A model generated the notes under the pieces. That model saw nothing but the letters and a program-made list of their open reading frames with translations. It did not search any database and had not been told where the DNA came from. Positions 34,212 to 52,444 of a DNA stretch of 64,000 bases are shown one piece after another; position 1 is the stretch's first letter; each line of letters opens with the position of its first letter. The DNA is from Roseburia sp. Its GTDB lineage: Bacteria; Bacillota; Clostridia; Lachnospirales; Lachnospiraceae. Location: positions 1 through 64,000 of the forward strand of contig JAPFDX010000014.1 in assembly GCA_026168605.1 (NCBI GenBank), given 5' to 3'. The position numbers and the translations under genes were made by a program.

Positions 34212-35165
34212 TCATTTTAAAGTAACGCTATTCGGGGCGGTGCTAAAATTAAGCACCGTCCTATTTTTTGCCTCCAGTGAATCCTTTAGTTCGCTTGCCG
34301 GAAAATCCGGGTTTTCCGTGATGTCTGTGGGCGCGTCAAAGAAAAAGACGGACGCGCCGGTTTTCTCATAAAATTCTTCGGAGAAAGACCAGTTTCCGTG
34401 GTGACCGACCTGCACATAATCGCAGGCAATGGCGTCGCCGTACTGTGCGAGCAGGCAGGCGTCCATATCATATTTGATATCGGAACAGAAGAGCATACTG
34501 CTCTCTCCGCTGCTGACCTCAAACAACAGGGAGGCATTGTTCTGGTAATCGAGCTCCTCGCCCACATTGGCGAGGACGGTGTCGTCATAGGCGTTGTAGA
34601 CAGAGAAGGTCAGTCCGCAGATCTCCAGCACATCCCCGCGCTTTAGGTGGGTGACATTGGAGGCGTCTTTCGTGAGCGCATAGTAGTCCTGCAAAACCGT
34701 GATGTCGTCATACGGCTCTCCGGCAGCCATGATAAAATTGTAGTCAAAGCCGTTATCGTAGATCTGTTTTACGACAATATCGCCGGGATCCTTCATGATG
34801 GCGTTGAAAGCTCCGGCATGATCCTTGTGCGGATGCGAGATGATCCATGCGTCCACCGTATTGCCGTGTTCTGCGATGATCCGGCGGAGTGCGTCCTCGT
34901 TCTCTGCCCATCCCCCGTCGATGATGATCAGGGTATCCTCGTTTGTAATGGTATAGCAGGTCGCCTGCACCCCGGTCGCGTCGGGGTACTGTGTCACAAG
35001 GTATTCCGTTGTGGGATCCGGGGTGTGACCGGTGGAATCGACGGTCTTTTGTGGCATAAGAGTGGCTCGCGAAGCGAACCACTCGTTGTCTCCTGTCAGA
35101 AGAAAAATGCCCGCCGTAAGGACAAGCAGTCCGGCGGCGATGGCGAGTATTTGTTTGTTTTTCAT
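34212..35165 (-). CDS. Membrane-anchored MBL-fold metallo-hydrolase (ComEC-C-like)
   Basis: An N-terminal membrane anchor or signal (residues ~5-23) precedes an MBL domain with the metal motif SHPHKDHAG (H111, H113, D115, H116), TLIIIDGGW, and a late YVQVGHHGN block, the pattern of ComEC C-terminal-like and related extracellular MBL proteins, not of beta-lactamases. It may hydrolyse a phosphoester in the envelope. It is convergent with the BlaR1-like gene; the plus-strand terminator of that gene lies inside its 3' end. Confidence 0.87.
   Translation of the reverse strand: MKNKQILAIAAGLLVLTAGIFLLTGDNEWFASRATLMPQKTVDSTGHTPDPTTEYLVTQYPDATGVQATCYTITNEDTLIIIDGGWAENEDALRRIIAEHGNTVDAWIISHPHKDHAGAFNAIMKDPGDIVVKQIYDNGFDYNFIMAAGEPYDDITVLQDYYALTKDASNVTHLKRGDVLEICGLTFSVYNAYDDTVLANVGEELDYQNNASLLFEVSSGESSMLFCSDIKYDMDACLLAQYGDAIACDYVQVGHHGNWSFSEEFYEKTGASVFFFDAPTDITENPDFPASELKDSLEAKNRTVLNFSTAPNSVTLK
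34234..34269 (+). terminator. Rho-independent terminator for the blaI/blaR1-like operon
   Basis: An 11-pair stem (34234-34244 with 34252-34262, two G-U pairs, 7-base loop) is followed by ATTTTTT. It reads as a terminator on the plus strand, 100 bp after the BlaR1-like stop, yet it lies within the last coding codons of the convergent MBL gene. Confidence 0.7.
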
Positions 35166-35202
35166 GAAAATGCTCCAGTTCTGTTTTTATATTGTAGACT
35201 CA

Positions 35203-35502
35203 GAGGTCAAAACGGTTTTGTGAAGAATGGGATTGGAAAAATGCACGCATCGTATTCTGATTTGTGAATATGGAGAAGCTTAGAAACTTCTTAATGTTCT
35301 GTCAATTTCCAGTAATTCGACGGCAGGGATGCCGGCGAAAGCCCGAATTGCGCCACGGATGGCGCATGGAGGGCGGTTGCGTCTGGAGCCAATACCGAAC
35401 CCAGAACATTTTAGAAGTTCTTAGCTTCGGAATCCTGAACAAAAAGAATACTATGCGTGCATTTTTTCAGTCGCAATCTTTAAAAATCCCTTTTGCCACC
35501 TC
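35203..35502 (+). repeat. 300-bp near-palindromic repeat element, copy A
   Basis: The stretch between the MBL gene and the GT2 gene is a long inverted repeat that matches 51205-51501 in the opposite orientation. Outer arms 35237-35258 and 35445-35466 pair at 21 of 22 positions; inner arms (GAAGCTTAGAA and TTCTTAATGTTCTG with their complements at 35403-35428) also pair. The 54-bp core at 35314-35367 is identical to copy B and contains small hairpins, including GGC-GAAA-GCC and TGCGCCA-CGGA-TGGCGCA. The ends are related to GGTGGCAAAAGG. There is no transposase. It is either a miniature inverted-repeat transposable element or a structured RNA gene. Confidence 0.85.
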
Positions 35503-35552
35503 AATTTACATTATCAAAAATGCGAGGAAATGTAAACGAATAAACACAAGAC

Positions 35553-35581
35553 TTGCAACAAATATTAGAAAATGTTAGTAT
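35553..35581 (+). promoter_or_regulatory. Possible promoter of the tandem GT2 gene
   Basis: TTGCAA (35553-35558), 17 bp, TAGTAT (35576-35581), ending 25 bp before ATG 35607. The match is moderate; transcription could also start in the repeat element just upstream. Confidence 0.35.
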
Positions 35582-35606
35582 AAAGCCATTGGGAAAGGAA
35601 AATGGA

Positions 35607-38051
35607 ATGGATACACATAAATTTTTTGTGGAGAAGCTGCGGTTTCATCTGACGGACAGAAATAAGCTTGTGTTCGTGGGATGGTTTTTTGACGGAAACA
35701 CGAAGAACCACTCTCTTGAGGCATATCTGGATGACCGGAAGCTCCCACTGCAGATACAGATCAATAAAGGGGCAGAGGTCAGGCAGAAGTATATCAGGAG
35801 CATCAATGAGATCGAGGAGGAAGTGGTCGGGATCGTGACGCTTCCGGAGAACTGGCAGGACGGCAGAAAGTTTTGTATTGTGTCGTTTTACGGGGAGCAG
35901 CGCTCGAAGGCATACAGTGCCTCCGCCGCAAAGCTGCAGCGTCTTGCGCAGGAGATCAGCTACTATGTGGAAAGCTGCCACCGCGGGGAGGACCGCGTGA
36001 CAGTCACCGGCTGGTGCATGGCGGACGGCGAGGTGAAGATCGATGTTTTAAATGCGGCGAAGCAGCCGATTTCCGAGAAGGTCGAGCATTATTATAGGAA
36101 GGATCTGCTTTCCGTATTTCCGGAATGCGTAAAAGAGAGCAAGCCCGGCTTTCTGGTCTCCGCGAAGGTGCGTGCGGATGAGCCGGGACCTTTTTTTCTG
36201 GAGATGCGCAATGCGAGCAGGATGTCGCGGACGAAGCTGCGCAAGTGGGATGACGGCACGAAGCTTCAGTACATGATGGAAAAGGCGGGGAGTGCGGTGC
36301 GCTATTTAGAACGCAACGGCGCAACGGCAACCTTCTATAAAATACAGAGCAGGCTTTTAAAGAAAGAAGGCAACACCTACGAGAACTGGCGGAAGAAATA
36401 CGCGGTGACGGAGGAGGAGCTTGCGGCGCAGAGAGAGCGGCAGTTTACAAAAAAGATCCGCTTTTCCGTTGTCGTGCCCCTATATGCGACAAAGCCTGCC
36501 TATCTGCGCGAGATGATAGAATCCGTTTTGGCGCAGACCTATGCAAACTGGCAGCTCTGCATGGCGGACGGCAGTCCGGATACCGAACTGACGGCGATCC
36601 TGGAGGAATATGCCGCGAAGGATGCGCGCATCTGTTTTACGACGCTTGCGGAGAATTGCGGTATTTCTGGAAATACAAACGAGGCGCTCGCGCTTGCGGA
36701 CGGCGATTATCTGGTGTTTGCAGATCATGACGATCTCCTCGCGCCGAATGCGCTCTATGAATTTGCGGCTGCGATCGAGCGCGAGCCGGACATTGATATG
36801 CTTTATTCCGATGAGGATAAGGTGGATATGGACGGAAAGAAATATTTTGAGCCGCATTTTAAACCGGATTTTAATGTGGATCTGCTTTGCAGTATGAACT
36901 ATATTTGTCATCTTCTCGCCGTGCGGGGGGATGTGGTGGCGCGCGCGGGGCATTTTCTCGCGGAGTATGACGGCGCGCAGGATCTGGATTTTATTCTGCG
37001 GTGCAGCGAGCAGGCGGAGCATATCCATCATGTGCCAAAGATCCTCTACCACTGGCGCAGCCATATGGATTCGACGGCGGCAAACCCGGAGAGCAAGCGC
37101 TATGCCTTTGAGGCGGGGCGGCGCGCCATAGAGGCGCATTACAGGAGGCAGTCCATCCCGGCGCGTGTGGAGAACGCACAGTTTTACGGGATGTACCGCA
37201 CACGCTATGAGTGGCAGGAGACGCCGCTTGTCTCCATCATCATTCCGAACAAGGATCATGTGGCGGATCTGGACGTCTGCGTCCGTTCCATTTTTGAGAA
37301 GTCTCGGTACCGGAATTTTGAGTTTGTGATCGTGGAGAACAACAGTACAGAGGAAGAGACGTTTACTTACTATAAAAAGCTTGCAAGCGAGCGCGACAAT
37401 GTCCGCATCGTGCACTATGAGGGAGAGTTTAATTATTCCAGGATCAACAATTTTGGTGTGAAGGCGGCAGGGGGAGAGTATCTGCTGCTGCTAAATAACG
37501 ATACGGAGCTGATCGACGGTGAGGCGATCGGCGAGATGCTCGGCTATTGCATGAGAGAGGACGTCGGCGTTGTCGGAGCAAAGCTTTTGTATGGGGACGA
37601 TACGATACAGCACGCCGGAGTGATCCTTGGCTTTGGCGGGACCGCGGGGCACGCATTTATCGGCAAGAACCGTTACGATACCGGATATTTCGGCAGGATT
37701 TTGTGTGCGCAGGACTATTCGGCGGTGACGGCGGCGTGCATGATGACGAAGCGCAGCGTGTTTGAGGCGGCTGGCGACATGACCGAGGAGCTGGCGGTGG
37801 CGTTTAACGATATCGACTACTGTCTGAAAGTGCGCAGCCTCGGAAAACTTGTGGTGTATGATCCGTACGCGGAGCTGTACCACTACGAGTCAAAGTCGAG
37901 AGGGCTTGAGGATTCGCCGGAGAAGGTGGAGCGCTTTAACGGGGAGGTGGACATCCTGCTTTCGCGCTGGAGAGCGCTGATCGAGGCGGGCGATCCATAC
38001 TATAATTGTAACCTGACACTGGATAACTCGGATTTTTCCCTGAGAAGATGA
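35607..38051 (+). CDS. Tandem GT2 glycosyltransferase with N-terminal beta domain
   Basis: The 814-residue protein has an N-terminal ~250-residue region of beta character (LVFVGWFFDG, repeated as VTVTGWCMADGE), then GT2 domain 1 (SVVVPLYATKPAYLREMIESVLAQTY, LVFADHDDLLAPNALYEFA, MLYSDEDKVD) at about residues 290-540 and GT2 domain 2 (VSIIIPNKDHVADLDVCVRSIF, LLLLNNDTELIDGE, AFNDIDYCLKVRSLG) at about 550-790. Two active sites suggest that it adds two sugars in a row, as bifunctional rhamnosyl- or galactofuranosyltransferases do. ATG 35607 has AAGGAAA upstream. Confidence 0.87.
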   Translation: MDTHKFFVEKLRFHLTDRNKLVFVGWFFDGNTKNHSLEAYLDDRKLPLQIQINKGAEVRQKYIRSINEIEEEVVGIVTLPENWQDGRKFCIVSFYGEQRSKAYSASAAKLQRLAQEISYYVESCHRGEDRVTVTGWCMADGEVKIDVLNAAKQPISEKVEHYYRKDLLSVFPECVKESKPGFLVSAKVRADEPGPFFLEMRNASRMSRTKLRKWDDGTKLQYMMEKAGSAVRYLERNGATATFYKIQSRLLKKEGNTYENWRKKYAVTEEELAAQRERQFTKKIRFSVVVPLYATKPAYLREMIESVLAQTYANWQLCMADGSPDTELTAILEEYAAKDARICFTTLAENCGISGNTNEALALADGDYLVFADHDDLLAPNALYEFAAAIEREPDIDMLYSDEDKVDMDGKKYFEPHFKPDFNVDLLCSMNYICHLLAVRGDVVARAGHFLAEYDGAQDLDFILRCSEQAEHIHHVPKILYHWRSHMDSTAANPESKRYAFEAGRRAIEAHYRRQSIPARVENAQFYGMYRTRYEWQETPLVSIIIPNKDHVADLDVCVRSIFEKSRYRNFEFVIVENNSTEEETFTYYKKLASERDNVRIVHYEGEFNYSRINNFGVKAAGGEYLLLLNNDTELIDGEAIGEMLGYCMREDVGVVGAKLLYGDDTIQHAGVILGFGGTAGHAFIGKNRYDTGYFGRILCAQDYSAVTAACMMTKRSVFEAAGDMTEELAVAFNDIDYCLKVRSLGKLVVYDPYAELYHYESKSRGLEDSPEKVERFNGEVDILLSRWRALIEAGDPYYNCNLTLDNSDFSLRR

Positions 38052-47337: not shown

Positions 47338-47400
47338 AAACGGTAGACTTACCATATCACAAGGAAAGAGTAATCGCTTGTGGATGAAAGGAGAAACGTC

Positions 47401-48876: not shown

Positions 48877-48900
48877 TTTTATAAGGGTATTCGTACAAAT

Positions 48901-48945
48901 AAAATCGCAGCGACCGAATGTAAGTTTTCGGCGCTGCGATTTTAT
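48901..48945 (+). terminator. Rho-independent terminator after htrA
   Basis: AAAATCGCAGCG pairs fully with CGCTGCGATTTT, with an inner CCGAA/TTCGG stem and a single bulged A, followed by TTTATTT. A strong terminator 24 bp after the htrA stop. Confidence 0.9.
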
Positions 48946-48956
48946 TTGAAATTTTC

Positions 48957-48985
48957 TTGACGCTTCCGCAAAAAATAGATACCAT
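48957..48985 (+). promoter_or_regulatory. Predicted promoter of proC
   Basis: TTGACG (48957-48962), 17 bp, TACCAT (48980-48985), 40 bp before ATG 49026 and directly after the htrA terminator. Confidence 0.5.
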
Positions 48986-49025
48986 TAGAGGTAGAAAATG
49001 GTATTTCGGAAAGGAAGGTCTTTGT

Positions 49026-49841
49026 ATGATTGACAAGATTATCGGCTTTATCGGCGCGGGAAATATGGGAAGCGCGATGATTGGCGGGATTTTAAACGCA
49101 TCGTTAGCGTCGACCGGACAGTTGATCGCGAGCGCACACTCTGCGGAGACATTAGAGCGGCTGCATGAGAAGTTTAAGATAGAGACGACGCTCTCAAACC
49201 AGACGGTTGCGGAGCGCAGCGACATCCTTTTTCTCGCGGTGAAGCCGGATAAATTTGACGAGGTGATCCCGCAGATTGCCCCGCATATCAAAAGCCGGTG
49301 CATTATCGTGTCGGTTGCGGCGGGAAGGACGATCGCCTCGGTCGAGGAGAGCTTTGGGAGAGAGATCCGGCTGGTGCGCGCGATGCCAAACACGCCTGCG
49401 CTTGTGGGGGAGGCGATGAGCGCGCTGTGCGCCAACGCGAACGTGACCGCCACAGAACTCGGCGAGGTGCAGCAGATTTTCAATGCGTTCGGCAAATCGG
49501 AGATTGTGCCGGAGAGCCTGCTCGATGCGGTGGTGGGAGTGTCGGGATCTTCGCCGGCGTATGTGTATCTGTTTATCGAGGCGATGGCGGACGCCGCTGT
49601 CGCGGAGGGGATGTCCCGGGCGCAGGCATACAAATTTGCCGCGCAGGCGGTTTACGGGGCTGCCAAAATGGTGCTTGAGACGGGAAAGCATCCGGGAGAG
49701 CTAAAGGATGCCGTCTGCTCGCCGGGAGGGACGACGATCGAGGCGGTCGCCGCACTGGAAAAAGGCGGTCTGCGCGACGTCGTGATCACGGCACAGCGCG
49801 CCTGCACGGAGAAATCGCGCGCGATGGGAAGAAAAGAATAA
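49026..49841 (+). CDS. proC: Pyrroline-5-carboxylate reductase
   Basis: The 271-residue enzyme starts IIGFIGAGNMGSAMIGGIL, the NADPH-binding loop, and has FLAVKPDKFDEVIPQI, RAMPNTPALVGEAMSAL, VVGVSGSSPAYVYLFIEAMADAAV and the C-terminal SPGGTTIEAV block of ProC. It makes the last step of proline synthesis. GGAAGG precedes ATG 49026. The GH13 gene follows 25 bp later, probably in the same transcript. Confidence 0.95.
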   Translation: MIDKIIGFIGAGNMGSAMIGGILNASLASTGQLIASAHSAETLERLHEKFKIETTLSNQTVAERSDILFLAVKPDKFDEVIPQIAPHIKSRCIIVSVAAGRTIASVEESFGREIRLVRAMPNTPALVGEAMSALCANANVTATELGEVQQIFNAFGKSEIVPESLLDAVVGVSGSSPAYVYLFIEAMADAAVAEGMSRAQAYKFAAQAVYGAAKMVLETGKHPGELKDAVCSPGGTTIEAVAALEKGGLRDVVITAQRACTEKSRAMGRKE

Positions 49842-49866
49842 AAGAGAAGAGAGAGGACAGATTTTT

Positions 49867-51177
49867 ATGTGGGCGTATGAGAGTGTTTTTTACCAGATTT
49901 ATCCACTGGGTTTTTGCGGGGCGCCGTTTGAGAACGACGGGGTAGCTGCGCACAGAATCTTAAAGGTCAACGACTGGATCGGACATATCAAAAAGCTTGG
50001 GGCGAACGCCATTTACTTTTCCCCGGTGTTTGAGTCGGATACGCACGGCTACAATACCAGAGATTTCACAAAGATCGACACGCGCCTTGGCACAAATGAA
50101 GATTTTGCCGGGGTATGCCAAAATCTCCATAAGGAGGGGATCCGAGTGGTGCTCGACGGCGTGTTTAACCATGTCGGGCGCGGTTTCTGGGCGTTTCGCG
50201 ACGTGCTGGAAAAGCGGTGGGATTCGCCGTACAAGGACTGGTTTCATCTGAATTTTGACGGAAATTCAAATTATAACGACGGGCTGTGGTACGAGGGCTG
50301 GGAGGGCAATTACGACCTCGTGAAGCTCAACCTTCGGAATGAGGAGGTCGTACAGCATATCTTTTCCTGCATCGGACAGTGGGTGGAGGAGTTTGACATC
50401 GATGGTCTCCGCCTCGACGTTGCCTACTGTCTCGACCATGATTTTCTGCGCAGACTGCGCAGCTACTGTGAAAGTTTAAAGCCGGATTTCTTTCTGGTGG
50501 GGGAGACGCTGCACGGCGATTACAACCAGATCATGAATGACGAGATGCTCCACTCTGTCACGAATTATGAGTGCTACAAGGGGCTTCACTCCAGCTTCAA
50601 TTCGATGAATATGTTTGAGATCAACCATTCACTGCTGCGCCAGTTTGGACCGGAGAACTGGACGCTCTACAAGGGAAAGCATCTGCTCTCCTTTGTGGAT
50701 AACCATGACGTCACGCGTGTGGCAAGCATTTTGAATAATCCTGCGCATCTGCCGTTGATCTATGCGCTCGCGTTTGGGATGCCGGGGATCCCGTGCGTCT
50801 ATTACGGAAGCGAGTGGGGAGCAAAGGCGCGCAAGGAGGAGGGAGATCCCGCGCTCCGAGCCTGCTTTGAGGAACCGGAGTGGAATGAGCTGACAGCGTT
50901 TATCTGCAGGCTGGCGGAGGCGAAGAAGGCTTCTGCGGCATTAAATTACGGGGATTTCCGCTCGGTACTCCTGACCAATCAGCAGTGTATTTTTGAGAGA
51001 AAGACGGAAGGCGAGCGCGTACTCGTTGCCATCAATGCCGATGAAAATGATTTTACGGCACATTTTGATGCTGGTTGTGGTCAGGCGGAGGATCTGCTGA
51101 CCGGAGAGACGCATGATTTTGGCGGTGGAAGCGTGCTGCCGGGATATTCGGCGGCATTCTGGAAAATGGAAGCTTAA
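49867..51177 (+). CDS. GH13 alpha-amylase-family glycoside hydrolase, cytoplasmic
   Basis: The 436-residue protein has no signal peptide and shows the four GH13 regions: LDGVFNHVG, GLRLDVAY (nucleophile D184), LVGETLHG (acid E213) and FVDNHDVTR (D281), ending with a small beta domain. It likely cleaves alpha-linked malto-oligosaccharides inside the cell (maltodextrin glucosidase or cyclomaltodextrinase type). It lacks the N-terminal immunoglobulin-like domain of cyclomaltodextrinases. Confidence 0.92.
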   Translation: MWAYESVFYQIYPLGFCGAPFENDGVAAHRILKVNDWIGHIKKLGANAIYFSPVFESDTHGYNTRDFTKIDTRLGTNEDFAGVCQNLHKEGIRVVLDGVFNHVGRGFWAFRDVLEKRWDSPYKDWFHLNFDGNSNYNDGLWYEGWEGNYDLVKLNLRNEEVVQHIFSCIGQWVEEFDIDGLRLDVAYCLDHDFLRRLRSYCESLKPDFFLVGETLHGDYNQIMNDEMLHSVTNYECYKGLHSSFNSMNMFEINHSLLRQFGPENWTLYKGKHLLSFVDNHDVTRVASILNNPAHLPLIYALAFGMPGIPCVYYGSEWGAKARKEEGDPALRACFEEPEWNELTAFICRLAEAKKASAALNYGDFRSVLLTNQQCIFERKTEGERVLVAINADENDFTAHFDAGCGQAEDLLTGETHDFGGGSVLPGYSAAFWKMEA

Positions 51178-51204
51178 AAAGGAACGAAATTTCTTATAAA
51201 GCTT

Positions 51205-51501
51205 GGGATGTCAAAAGGTTTTACAGATTGCGGCTGGCAAATACACAAATGATATTCCTTTTTGTTCAGGATTCCGAAGCTAAGAACTTCTAAAATGTTC
51301 TGCGTATCGGTAATGTGCAGGAACGTAACCGCCCTCTATGCGCCATCCGTGGCGCAATTCGGGCTTTCGCCGGCATCCCTGCCGTCGAATTGCTGGAACT
51401 TGGCAGAACATTAAGAAGTTCTAAGCTTCTCCATATTCACAAATCAGAATATCATTTGGGCATTTTGCCAATCCCATTTTTGAAAACTCCTTTTGCCACC
51501 C
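51205..51501 (-). repeat. ~300-bp near-palindromic repeat element, copy B
   Basis: In the 393-bp gap between the GH13 gene and crt lies a second copy of the element at 35203-35502, in reverse orientation. The core 51338-51391 is an exact reverse complement of the 54-bp core of copy A. Its outer arms (51236-51257 and 51447-51469) pair with each other at about 20 of 23 positions but differ in sequence from the arms of copy A. There is no open frame of interest in it. Confidence 0.85.
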
Positions 51502-51515
51502 AAATCCTATAAAGA

Positions 51516-51554
51516 AAAACGGTACGTCTGTGGATCGCACAAACGTACCGTTTT
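51516..51554 (-). terminator. Rho-independent terminator of crt
   Basis: Arms 51516-51527 and 51543-51554 form a 12-bp perfect stem. On the minus strand it is followed by a T-rich TTTTTCTTT, so it terminates crt, which ends 17 bp before. Confidence 0.85.
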
Positions 51555-51570
51555 GATTTTACTAGAGTGA

Positions 51571-52374
51571 TTAGAAATCAGTGAGGTTTGCAGCTCTTCT
51601 CTCAAGGAAAGCGGTCATGCCCTCTTTCTTGTCGTTGGTGGAGCAGGTCACACCAAAGAGATTTGCCTCCATCTCGACAGCGTTCTGGATATCCATATCG
51701 TAGCCGTTGTTGATCGCTGCCTTTGCAACGGAAACGGCGAAGCTGCCCTTGGAGATGATCTTTGCTGCCATAGCCTTTGCGGTAGCCATCAGTTCTTCCG
51801 GAGCGACAACCTTATTCACAAGACCGATGCGGTATGCTTCTGCCGCGTCGATGGAATCGCAGGTGAAGATCATTTCTTTTGCACGGCCCATGCCAACCAA
51901 GCGCGCAAGTCTCTGTGTGCCGCCAAAGCCCGGGATGATGCCGAGTCCCGTCTCCGGCTGTGCGAAGGTAGCGTTCTCAGATGCGATGCGGATATCGCAC
52001 GCCATCGCGATCTCGCATCCGCCGCCGAGTGCAAAACCGTTGACGGCAGCGATGGTCACCTGACGCATATTCTGTAATTTGAAGAAAGGTACGGAAGCCT
52101 TCATGCCGAATGCTCTCGCCTCTGCCGCCGAGAAGTTCACCATCTCGGAGATGTCAGCGCCTGCCACGAAAGACTTGAACTCATTGCCCTTCTTGTCCGG
52201 TCCTCCGGTTAAGATGACAACCTTCACGTCGTCTCTTGCCTCGATCTCGGTGAGAGCTGTATTCAGCTCGTCCAGAGTCTCGCTATTTAAGGCGTTGAGT
52301 GCCGCCGGTCTGGAGATTGCGAGAACTGCAATTTCAGCGGCAACGTTTAAGGTTAAGTTGTTAAATTCGCTCAT
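51571..52374 (-). CDS. crt: Enoyl-CoA hydratase/crotonase (3-hydroxybutyryl-CoA dehydratase type)
   Basis: The 267-residue protein has the crotonase folds: FVAGADISEMVNFS for the oxyanion loop, AVNGFALGGGCEIAMACDIRIAS, and QPETGLGIIPGFGGTQRLARLVG with the catalytic glutamates. It resembles Crt of butyrate formers that makes crotonyl-CoA. ATG at 52374 has an AGGAGGGT site before it. In butyrate producers crt often sits with thl, hbd, bcd and etf; none is here. Confidence 0.92.
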   Translation of the reverse strand: MSEFNNLTLNVAAEIAVLAISRPAALNALNSETLDELNTALTEIEARDDVKVVILTGGPDKKGNEFKSFVAGADISEMVNFSAAEARAFGMKASVPFFKLQNMRQVTIAAVNGFALGGGCEIAMACDIRIASENATFAQPETGLGIIPGFGGTQRLARLVGMGRAKEMIFTCDSIDAAEAYRIGLVNKVVAPEELMATAKAMAAKIISKGSFAVSVAKAAINNGYDMDIQNAVEMEANLFGVTCSTNDKKEGMTAFLERRAANLTDF

Positions 52375-52444
52375 TTCAAAAACCCTCCTGAATCGATAGA
52401 TTGTGATAAATATTTGATAAAAAATTAACAATATTGCTATTTAC

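Follow-up and report, generated by a model that had tools for sequence, protein, structure and literature searches.

The window analyzed here is a 64,000-nucleotide stretch of the draft genome of a Roseburia species, and it contains two copies of a palindromic element in inverted orientation. Copy 1 lies between genes at 34212-35165 (minus strand) and 35553-38051 (plus strand). A metallo-beta-lactamase-fold gene starts approximately 32 bp from this copy, which precedes a glycosyltransferase gene by approximately 100 bp. Copy 2 lies between genes at 49867-51177 (plus strand) and 51571-52431 (minus strand), with an amylase gene and an enoyl-CoA hydratase gene as its neighbors. The strands of the flanking genes confirm an earlier description of one gap as divergent and the other as convergent.

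The first-pass annotation of this DNA had also reported a related inverted pair with a 54-bp core, and this was found to be correct. The two copies are 80.9% identical across the aligned extended element (gaps excluded), and the longest exact run that they have in common is 54 bp. The long imperfect palindromes noted at the same time were confirmed by comparing RNA folds with those of shuffled sequences. The folding energies of copies 1 and 2 were determined to be -133 and -126 kcal/mol, with z scores of -9.5 and -7.7, respectively; the shuffled sequences had a mean of approximately -80 kcal/mol in both cases, and none of 100 shuffles was as low. Each predicted fold is a long imperfect hairpin with short hairpins close to its tip. 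The ends of both copies are variants of GGTGGCAAAAGG, and with these ends included the full elements extend slightly beyond the limits first given for them. In keeping with the first-pass annotation, no transposase was seen beside either copy or among the eight window proteins scanned with Pfam. The coordinates of the features are collected in Table 1.

Table 1. Positions of the two elements and of their associated features within the window
Feature	Position	Strand	Basis or remark
Promoter-like site at copy 1	35164-35193		Chance level for region
TATATT, -10-like box directly 5' of copy 1, sense direction	35188..35193	+	
Expected target-site duplication site of copy 1	35189..35197	.	4/9 match to 35506-35514, not evident
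Element copy 1, type II (RNA strand plus)	35198..35505	+	End-motif match, 39-copy comparison
Copy 1 left arm and terminal inverted repeat	35198..35268	+	Pairs with 35436-35505
TwoAYGGAY RNA core of copy 1 (RF01731)	35269..35435	+	111.6 bits, cut-off 43
Copy 1 hairpin 1, loop AGGGAT, GGA 35327-35329	35321..35334	+	Fold
Copy 1 hairpin 2, loop ACGGAT, GGA 35357-35359	35350..35365	+	Fold
Copy 1 right arm and terminal inverted repeat	35436..35505	+	
Copy 2 target-site duplication, CTTATAAAG	51193..51201	.	8/9 match to other side
Element copy 2, type II (RNA strand minus)	51202..51505	-	End-motif match
TwoAYGGAY RNA core of copy 2 (RF01731)	51269..51435	-	110.6 bits
Copy 2 hairpin 2, GGA loop	51340..51355	-	Fold
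Copy 2 hairpin 1, GGA loop	51371..51384	-	Fold
Copy 2 target-site duplication, CCTATAAAG	51506..51514	.	Abuts terminator-like hairpin
Terminator-like hairpin beside copy 2	51516-51554	-	

Both copies match the TwoAYGGAY motif of Rfam across all 168 model positions. A search with this model returned 39 matches in the draft genome (2.73 Mb in 50 contigs), all of them above the Rfam curated cut-off. No TwoAYGGAY match was found in 14 control genomes, and the recurrence is thus well beyond chance. The element is approximately 305 bp long, reaches approximately 70 nt beyond the Rfam model on each side, and has no transposase gene inside. The 39 copies were sorted by eye on the sequence of the closing stem; a script pattern left three of them (L008, L019, and L025) undecided. 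Twenty-seven copies, including the two from the window, have the closing stem TATGGAGAAGC with variants and are designated type II, and the other 12, with ATGTGGAGAATC and variants, are designated type I. The mean pairwise identity is 80% among type II copies and 71% among type I copies, and the greater divergence makes type I look older. A scan of genome contigs with a strict core pattern, which possibly leaves out near records, returned a single locus in a Lachnospiraceae MAG. Copy 1 had no blastn match in plasmids and phages at an E value of 0.001, and two exact element patterns had no match in viral contigs.

The type II copies end in terminal inverted repeats that read ATTCGGGTGTCAAAAGG inward from either side. 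Target-site duplication was examined in the 21 of 27 type II copies with both ends matching at no fewer than 11 of 17 positions, and the other six were omitted. The 9-bp flanks of these 21 copies were found to be 63% identical when each was compared with its own partner and 41% identical when the partners were swapped; none of 5000 shuffles attained the observed value. The signal was strongest at this length, the corresponding shuffle counts (of 5000) for 7, 8, 10, 11, and 12 bp being 1782, 4347, 3564, 433, and 4845, respectively. Two copies have exact 9-bp duplications, CCTATCAAG and CCGGATAGG. The duplications that the first-pass annotation had suggested looking for are therefore present in the type II class and at copy 2, and are not evident at copy 1 (Table 1); none is evident by eye in the type I copies. 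Of the type II copies, 15 are followed by a gene on the RNA strand and 11 by one on the opposite strand, with no gene in reach of the remaining copy. Inverted ends, a 9-bp target-site duplication, and insertion in either orientation together give the element the structure of a non-autonomous DNA transposon (MITE). The interpretation of the element as a MITE that carries an RNA as cargo is well supported by these comparisons. A MITE and a structured RNA family had been offered earlier as two explanations that would both fit, and the element appears to be both at once, with the ends and the 9-bp duplication of the former and the Rfam match and GGA loops of the latter.

The end motif, with three or fewer mismatches allowed, has 48 matches in the genome versus 10 for a reversed-pattern control. 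Of 62 genomes from the genus, 13 contain an exact 15-mer of the end and none contains its control. The additional end-motif matches include internally deleted derivatives in which the ends are kept, and some look like chance. In one derivative, 199 bp long, the two GGA hairpins are missing and the ends are intact; another is hardly more than the two ends. No autonomous partner was found among the end matches inspected, which covered 20 stretches in two genomes and some in the genome of the window. The sole transposase family searched for was PF00872, and no intact member is present in this genome. The only PF00872 gene is a broken IS256-type gene (G000 C33:4798-5833, two matches) on a contig without an end-motif match. 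In the comparison for an empty site, the nearest orthologous loci have an amylase gene with approximately 77-79% identity and a rearrangement at the position of copy 2.

The surroundings of individual copies were also inspected. Palindromic flanks were rejected as a general feature; just 4 of 79 copies attain the 99% background level. At one copy (L119, G054:C1:811600-816800) the flanks form a nearly perfect inverted repeat that continues for approximately 50 bp past the element, and at another (L118) a flanking inverted repeat runs for approximately 23 bp. Short repeats, GCCGCAGTGCGATCC, and palindromes resembling TTTATAGGAAACGACGTTTCCTATAAAG are found near some elements, and the latter kind contains the preferred target. 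Repeats flank five copies (L014, L016, L035, L037, and L039) and, by eye, three more (L006, L015, and L022). Close head-to-head pairs of copies (minus then plus), separated by a few hundred bases, occur in five genomes (G052, G014, G016, G067, and G145), and none occurs among the 39 positions of the window genome.

The same RNA was found within a second type of element. A complete genome from another family (G297, family f40) contains at least seven copies with common ends resembling CTGYAATTCGTAATATA, which are unlike the type II ends. Words common to the two flanks of a copy include GTACATAAAA, ATCATATAA, and ATGGAATGG. The mean length of the longest common flank word is 8.0 for the true flanks versus 3.69 for swapped flanks, and the single permutation of 5040 that attains 8.0 is the true pairing itself. 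The common word is short in two of the seven copies (TTATAT and ATCC). A further 13 copies from class-level genomes, two of them at contig ends, were viewed by eye alone. On the strength of these sequence signatures, an Rfam family of unknown function that is filed as cis-regulatory is carried by mobile DNA in two bacterial families. Carriage of this kind would explain the dispersed, patchy, and high-copy distribution of TwoAYGGAY.

The type I copies have a different relationship to their neighboring genes. The next gene is on the same strand as the RNA in all 12. In nine of the 12 type I copies and in two of the 27 type II copies, the 26 nt preceding the 5' end contain a TATAAT-like box, versus 46 of 778 background windows; on the opposite (antisense) side the counts are 3 and 4, respectively. 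Three type I copies have no -10 box under the rule used. A ribosome site and a start are found within a few tens of bases of the 3' arm in most type I copies. With all 12 in the sense orientation and nine preceded by a -10-like box, the type I copies look like 5'-UTR leaders, and it is likely that some of them serve in this manner. The downstream genes, named by reading their translations, include those for Pol IV, a UvrD-type helicase, GreA, an AraC-type regulator, and an rRNA methyltransferase. These genes have no common theme, which is more in keeping with capture by insertion than with a planned regulon. By eye, further promoter-like sequence is found downstream of the element in three type I copies, those adjoining secA-like, rhomboid-like, and purL-like genes. 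The ribosome site of the type I genes is outside the hairpin (by eye), and thus the classic repression of translation by CsrA is not straightforwardly applicable. The simple gene caller that was used gave an unlikely frame for one copy (L004) and perhaps for a second (L008); a better frame on the same strand is present in both.

The window copies were considered in the same way. Copy 1 is in the sense orientation and is one of the two type II copies with an upstream box (TATATT). The promoter scan returned two sites at this copy versus a mean of 1.0 in shuffled sequences, which is the level expected by chance, and the promoter signal is therefore weak. For copy 2 no promoter-like site was found, and the gene that follows its 3' end runs toward the element, so this copy is not placed as a leader. 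There is no good evidence that either window copy acts as a regulator.

All 39 copies have the GGA trinucleotide at each of the two loop positions, and the first loop is mostly AGGGAT, a variant of AYGGAY. When the core alone was folded, the minimum-energy structure was found to have GGA in two hairpin loops for nine of the 12 type I copies and for 17 of the 27 type II copies, a total of 26 out of 39. The core folds from three relatives contain the two loops in 19 of 20, 10 of 10, and 9 of 10 copies, respectively. The second hairpin stem of one copy (L042) is poor. In the accessible sections of Gardner and Eldai (2014, PMC4333381), TwoAYGGAY was matched to a model of the CsrA site and the sequestration of CsrA was proposed.

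The distribution of the RNA was compared with that of CsrA in two samples that share some genomes. In the family sample of 200 genomes, one genome a genus, there are 35 with the RNA and 110 with CsrA (108 when the curated cut-off is applied), and 34 of the 35 genomes with the RNA also have CsrA (p = 2e-9). In the class sample of 391 genomes, 36 have the RNA (27 with a score above the curated cut-off) and 125 have CsrA, both being present in 31 of the 36 (p = 2e-12). Outside its own family the RNA is accompanied by CsrA in 25 of 30 genomes. Within the genus, CsrA was found in 56 of 60 genomes and the RNA in 24, of which 23 have both; CsrA is nearly universal there, and the association within the genus therefore says little. 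The exception in the family sample (G227) has one RNA copy near a contig start, with no frame of at least 80 residues in the 1.9 kb examined, and is perhaps a binning error. The five genomes of the class sample with the RNA and no CsrA (G437, G478, G517, G535, and G577) are 84, 80, 88, 95, and 98% complete, respectively, and CsrA-bearing congeners are present in the sample for all five. In these counts, which are uncontrolled for relatedness and flagella, CsrA looks to be needed but not sufficient for the presence of the RNA. The association across families could arise from flagella or from shared ancestry.

The window genome has five CsrA-family genes, the canonical copy being on contig C15. 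Leu4 and Arg44 are binding residues of CsrA from E. coli. By eye, both residues are present in the canonical protein and in the copies from contigs C38, C9, and C26, and the copy from C47 has Arg44 and an isoleucine at position 4. It is likely that the TwoAYGGAY RNA is a ligand of CsrA, and the co-occurrence of the two provides comparative support for the binding proposal of 2014. The four extra CsrA-family genes (L046, L044, L045, and L043, on contigs C47, C26, C38, and C9 of G000, respectively) are frames of 79-100 residues. From the Pfam matches, flagellin genes adjoin those on C38 and C47, and tyrosine-recombinase genes adjoin those on C38, C26, and C9; the genes on C26 and C9 are at contig ends. 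The extra CsrA-family, flagellin, and recombinase genes possibly form a flagellin switching system.

The arms outside of the Rfam model pair better with their own partner than with the partner from a different copy, to approximately 75 nt on each side and no further. This co-adaptation was found inside each of five groups, and 0 of 5000 shuffles attained the observed value. The own partner is the best one over the whole arm for 20 of 20 copies in G016 and for 9 of 27 in the type II copies of the window genome. Changes on both sides were found at 33 of 73 predicted pairs in an alignment of 26 of the 39 copies. An anchored, zoned count of arm mismatches gave 264 G-U versus 338 A-C overall (29:26, 50:43, 97:137, and 88:132 with distance from the core), with shared ancestry included, and thus no excess of G-U. 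A slight lean toward G-U was seen by eye in alignment columns of the inner arm, and the zoned count does not confirm it. The lack of an excess weakens the view that the arms are a plain RNA stem. In counts that likewise include shared ancestry, the G-U to A-C ratio for the closing stem of the core is 22:3 in this genome and 15:23 in three relatives pooled, and wobble pairs versus A-C mismatches in the loop stems are 14:4 in this genome. We infer that the tip may be kept as RNA and the arms kept complementary at the level of DNA, for example by template switching between the arms or by the needs of transposition.

The gene order around copy 2 was compared with that of the nine nearest loci that were fetched, three of which are truncated. 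All four genes are present in the other six, in the order hydratase, proC, amylase, and the gene at 47380 (convergent). Amylase and hydratase matches from the rest of the genus are found at varied distances and in varied orders. The proC-amylase block of the window (approximately 2.2 kb, in the region 48877-51570) is inverted relative to the six readable loci. Copy 2 is at one joint of this block, and a terminator-like hairpin is at the other, where no element was seen by eye.

The first-pass annotation had further suggested that recombination between the two copies could invert 16 kb of glycan genes. The four proteins scanned inside this interval are two glycosyltransferases, an amylase, and pyrroline-5-carboxylate reductase, so that the description of the genes suits part of the interval. 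The inversion itself is not supported. Programmed or frequent inversion of the intervening 16 kb would draw on the inverted orientation, the 54-bp exact match, and the joint of the proC-amylase rearrangement at copy 2. However, the observed rearrangement is smaller than, and differs from, the one suggested, its other joint has no visible element, many other copies could recombine in the same way, and no recombinase was found among the eight window proteins scanned. We give this possibility very little credence.

We consider it probable that the pair represents two of approximately 39 copies of a MITE of approximately 305 bp, with the TwoAYGGAY RNA as cargo and probable CsrA ligand, and with type I copies that have become leaders. 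A trans-acting transposase would cleave the inverted ends and join them to the target. This enzyme would prefer a near-palindromic, TATA-like target (approximately CTTTATAGG), which in several copies adjoins a terminator T-tract or another small palindrome, and would duplicate 9 bp. The cargo encodes no protein and is predicted to fold as a long hairpin with two short GGA-loop hairpins at the tip. In a copy transcribed in the sense direction, the two loops would most likely bind one CsrA dimer. The type I copies, mostly located just 3' of -10-like boxes, would make up most of the 5' UTR and may have been recruited as leaders, by which either the gene or the pool of free CsrA would come under CsrA influence. 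On the simplest view, the two window copies would be insertions that add CsrA sites only when transcribed, copy 2 being behind a terminator in a convergent gap and copy 1 having a weak, chance-level -10-like box.

An ordinary MITE, with a center that is a DNA hairpin read by the transposition machinery rather than an RNA and with CsrA irrelevant, would account for arms that co-adapt in five groups without an RNA-type G-U bias. Conserved loops would also be expected if the transposase reads single-stranded hairpins, as in the IS200/IS605 family, but a 9-bp duplication and inverted ends are unlike transposition of that type. The derivative without the GGA hairpins has intact ends, which also argues against a role for the hairpins in transposition, although their deletion may have followed insertion. 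The sense orientation of all type I copies, the wobble pairs of the loop stems, and the link to CsrA would require another cause, and we regard this explanation as unlikely. It is quite improbable that the copies belong to a fixed family of trans-acting, CsrA-sequestering small RNAs or cis-acting leaders that has spread by duplication and not by transposition. The listing of TwoAYGGAY as cis-regulatory in Rfam, the leader-like type I copies, and the sequestration proposal in the accessible part of PMC4333381 are all in keeping with such a family. The 9-bp duplications, the conserved ends, and the two orientations of type II are nevertheless signatures of transposition, and similar signatures with other ends are found in G297 from another family. 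The type II class also has no upstream -10 signal (window copy 1 is one of its two copies with a box).

The probable reading as a MITE with a CsrA-binding cargo can tentatively be extended to TwoAYGGAY as a whole, which would possibly be a transposon-borne CsrA ligand that unrelated ends have captured at least two times, each insertion being a site for a CsrA dimer. If this is true, transposition writes the sites of a global RNA-binding regulator into a genome. In CsrA-bearing Clostridia it would build and rebuild a post-transcriptional regulon together with a CsrA sponge, and old copies would become fixed as sense leaders. A mobile TwoAYGGAY is not described in the searchable literature, which mostly excludes subscription papers, and the accessible portions of PMC2864571, PMC4333381, PMC11701678, PMC4383904, PMC11661157, and PMC7657543 contain no mention of mobility. 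A table in the accessible part of PMC2864571 places the motif in the human gut, gamma-Proteobacteria, and Clostridiales and rates it n for cis-reg.

The element has the sequence and structure of the TwoAYGGAY motif over the whole model, with two GGA-loop hairpins on a long stem, and it differs from the motif as described in having co-adapted arms, defined ends, and target-site duplications. CsrB, CsrC, RsmX, RsmY, and RsmZ similarly have GGA in hairpin loops and a presence that is tied to CsrA. In contrast to these RNAs, the element has only two sites per RNA, occupies tens of loci, and is spread by transposition, and nothing at the window copies suggests an independent small-RNA gene. The Correia/NEMIS, ERIC, Nezha, and BOX elements are also short and non-coding, with inverted ends and tens of copies near genes, but the element found here has an RNA core, a pair of GGA loops in every copy, and a subfamily found only in the sense orientation. 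The REP/BIME sequences are likewise dispersed palindromes at the ends of genes and near terminators, and the element described here differs from them in being much longer and in having target-site duplications.
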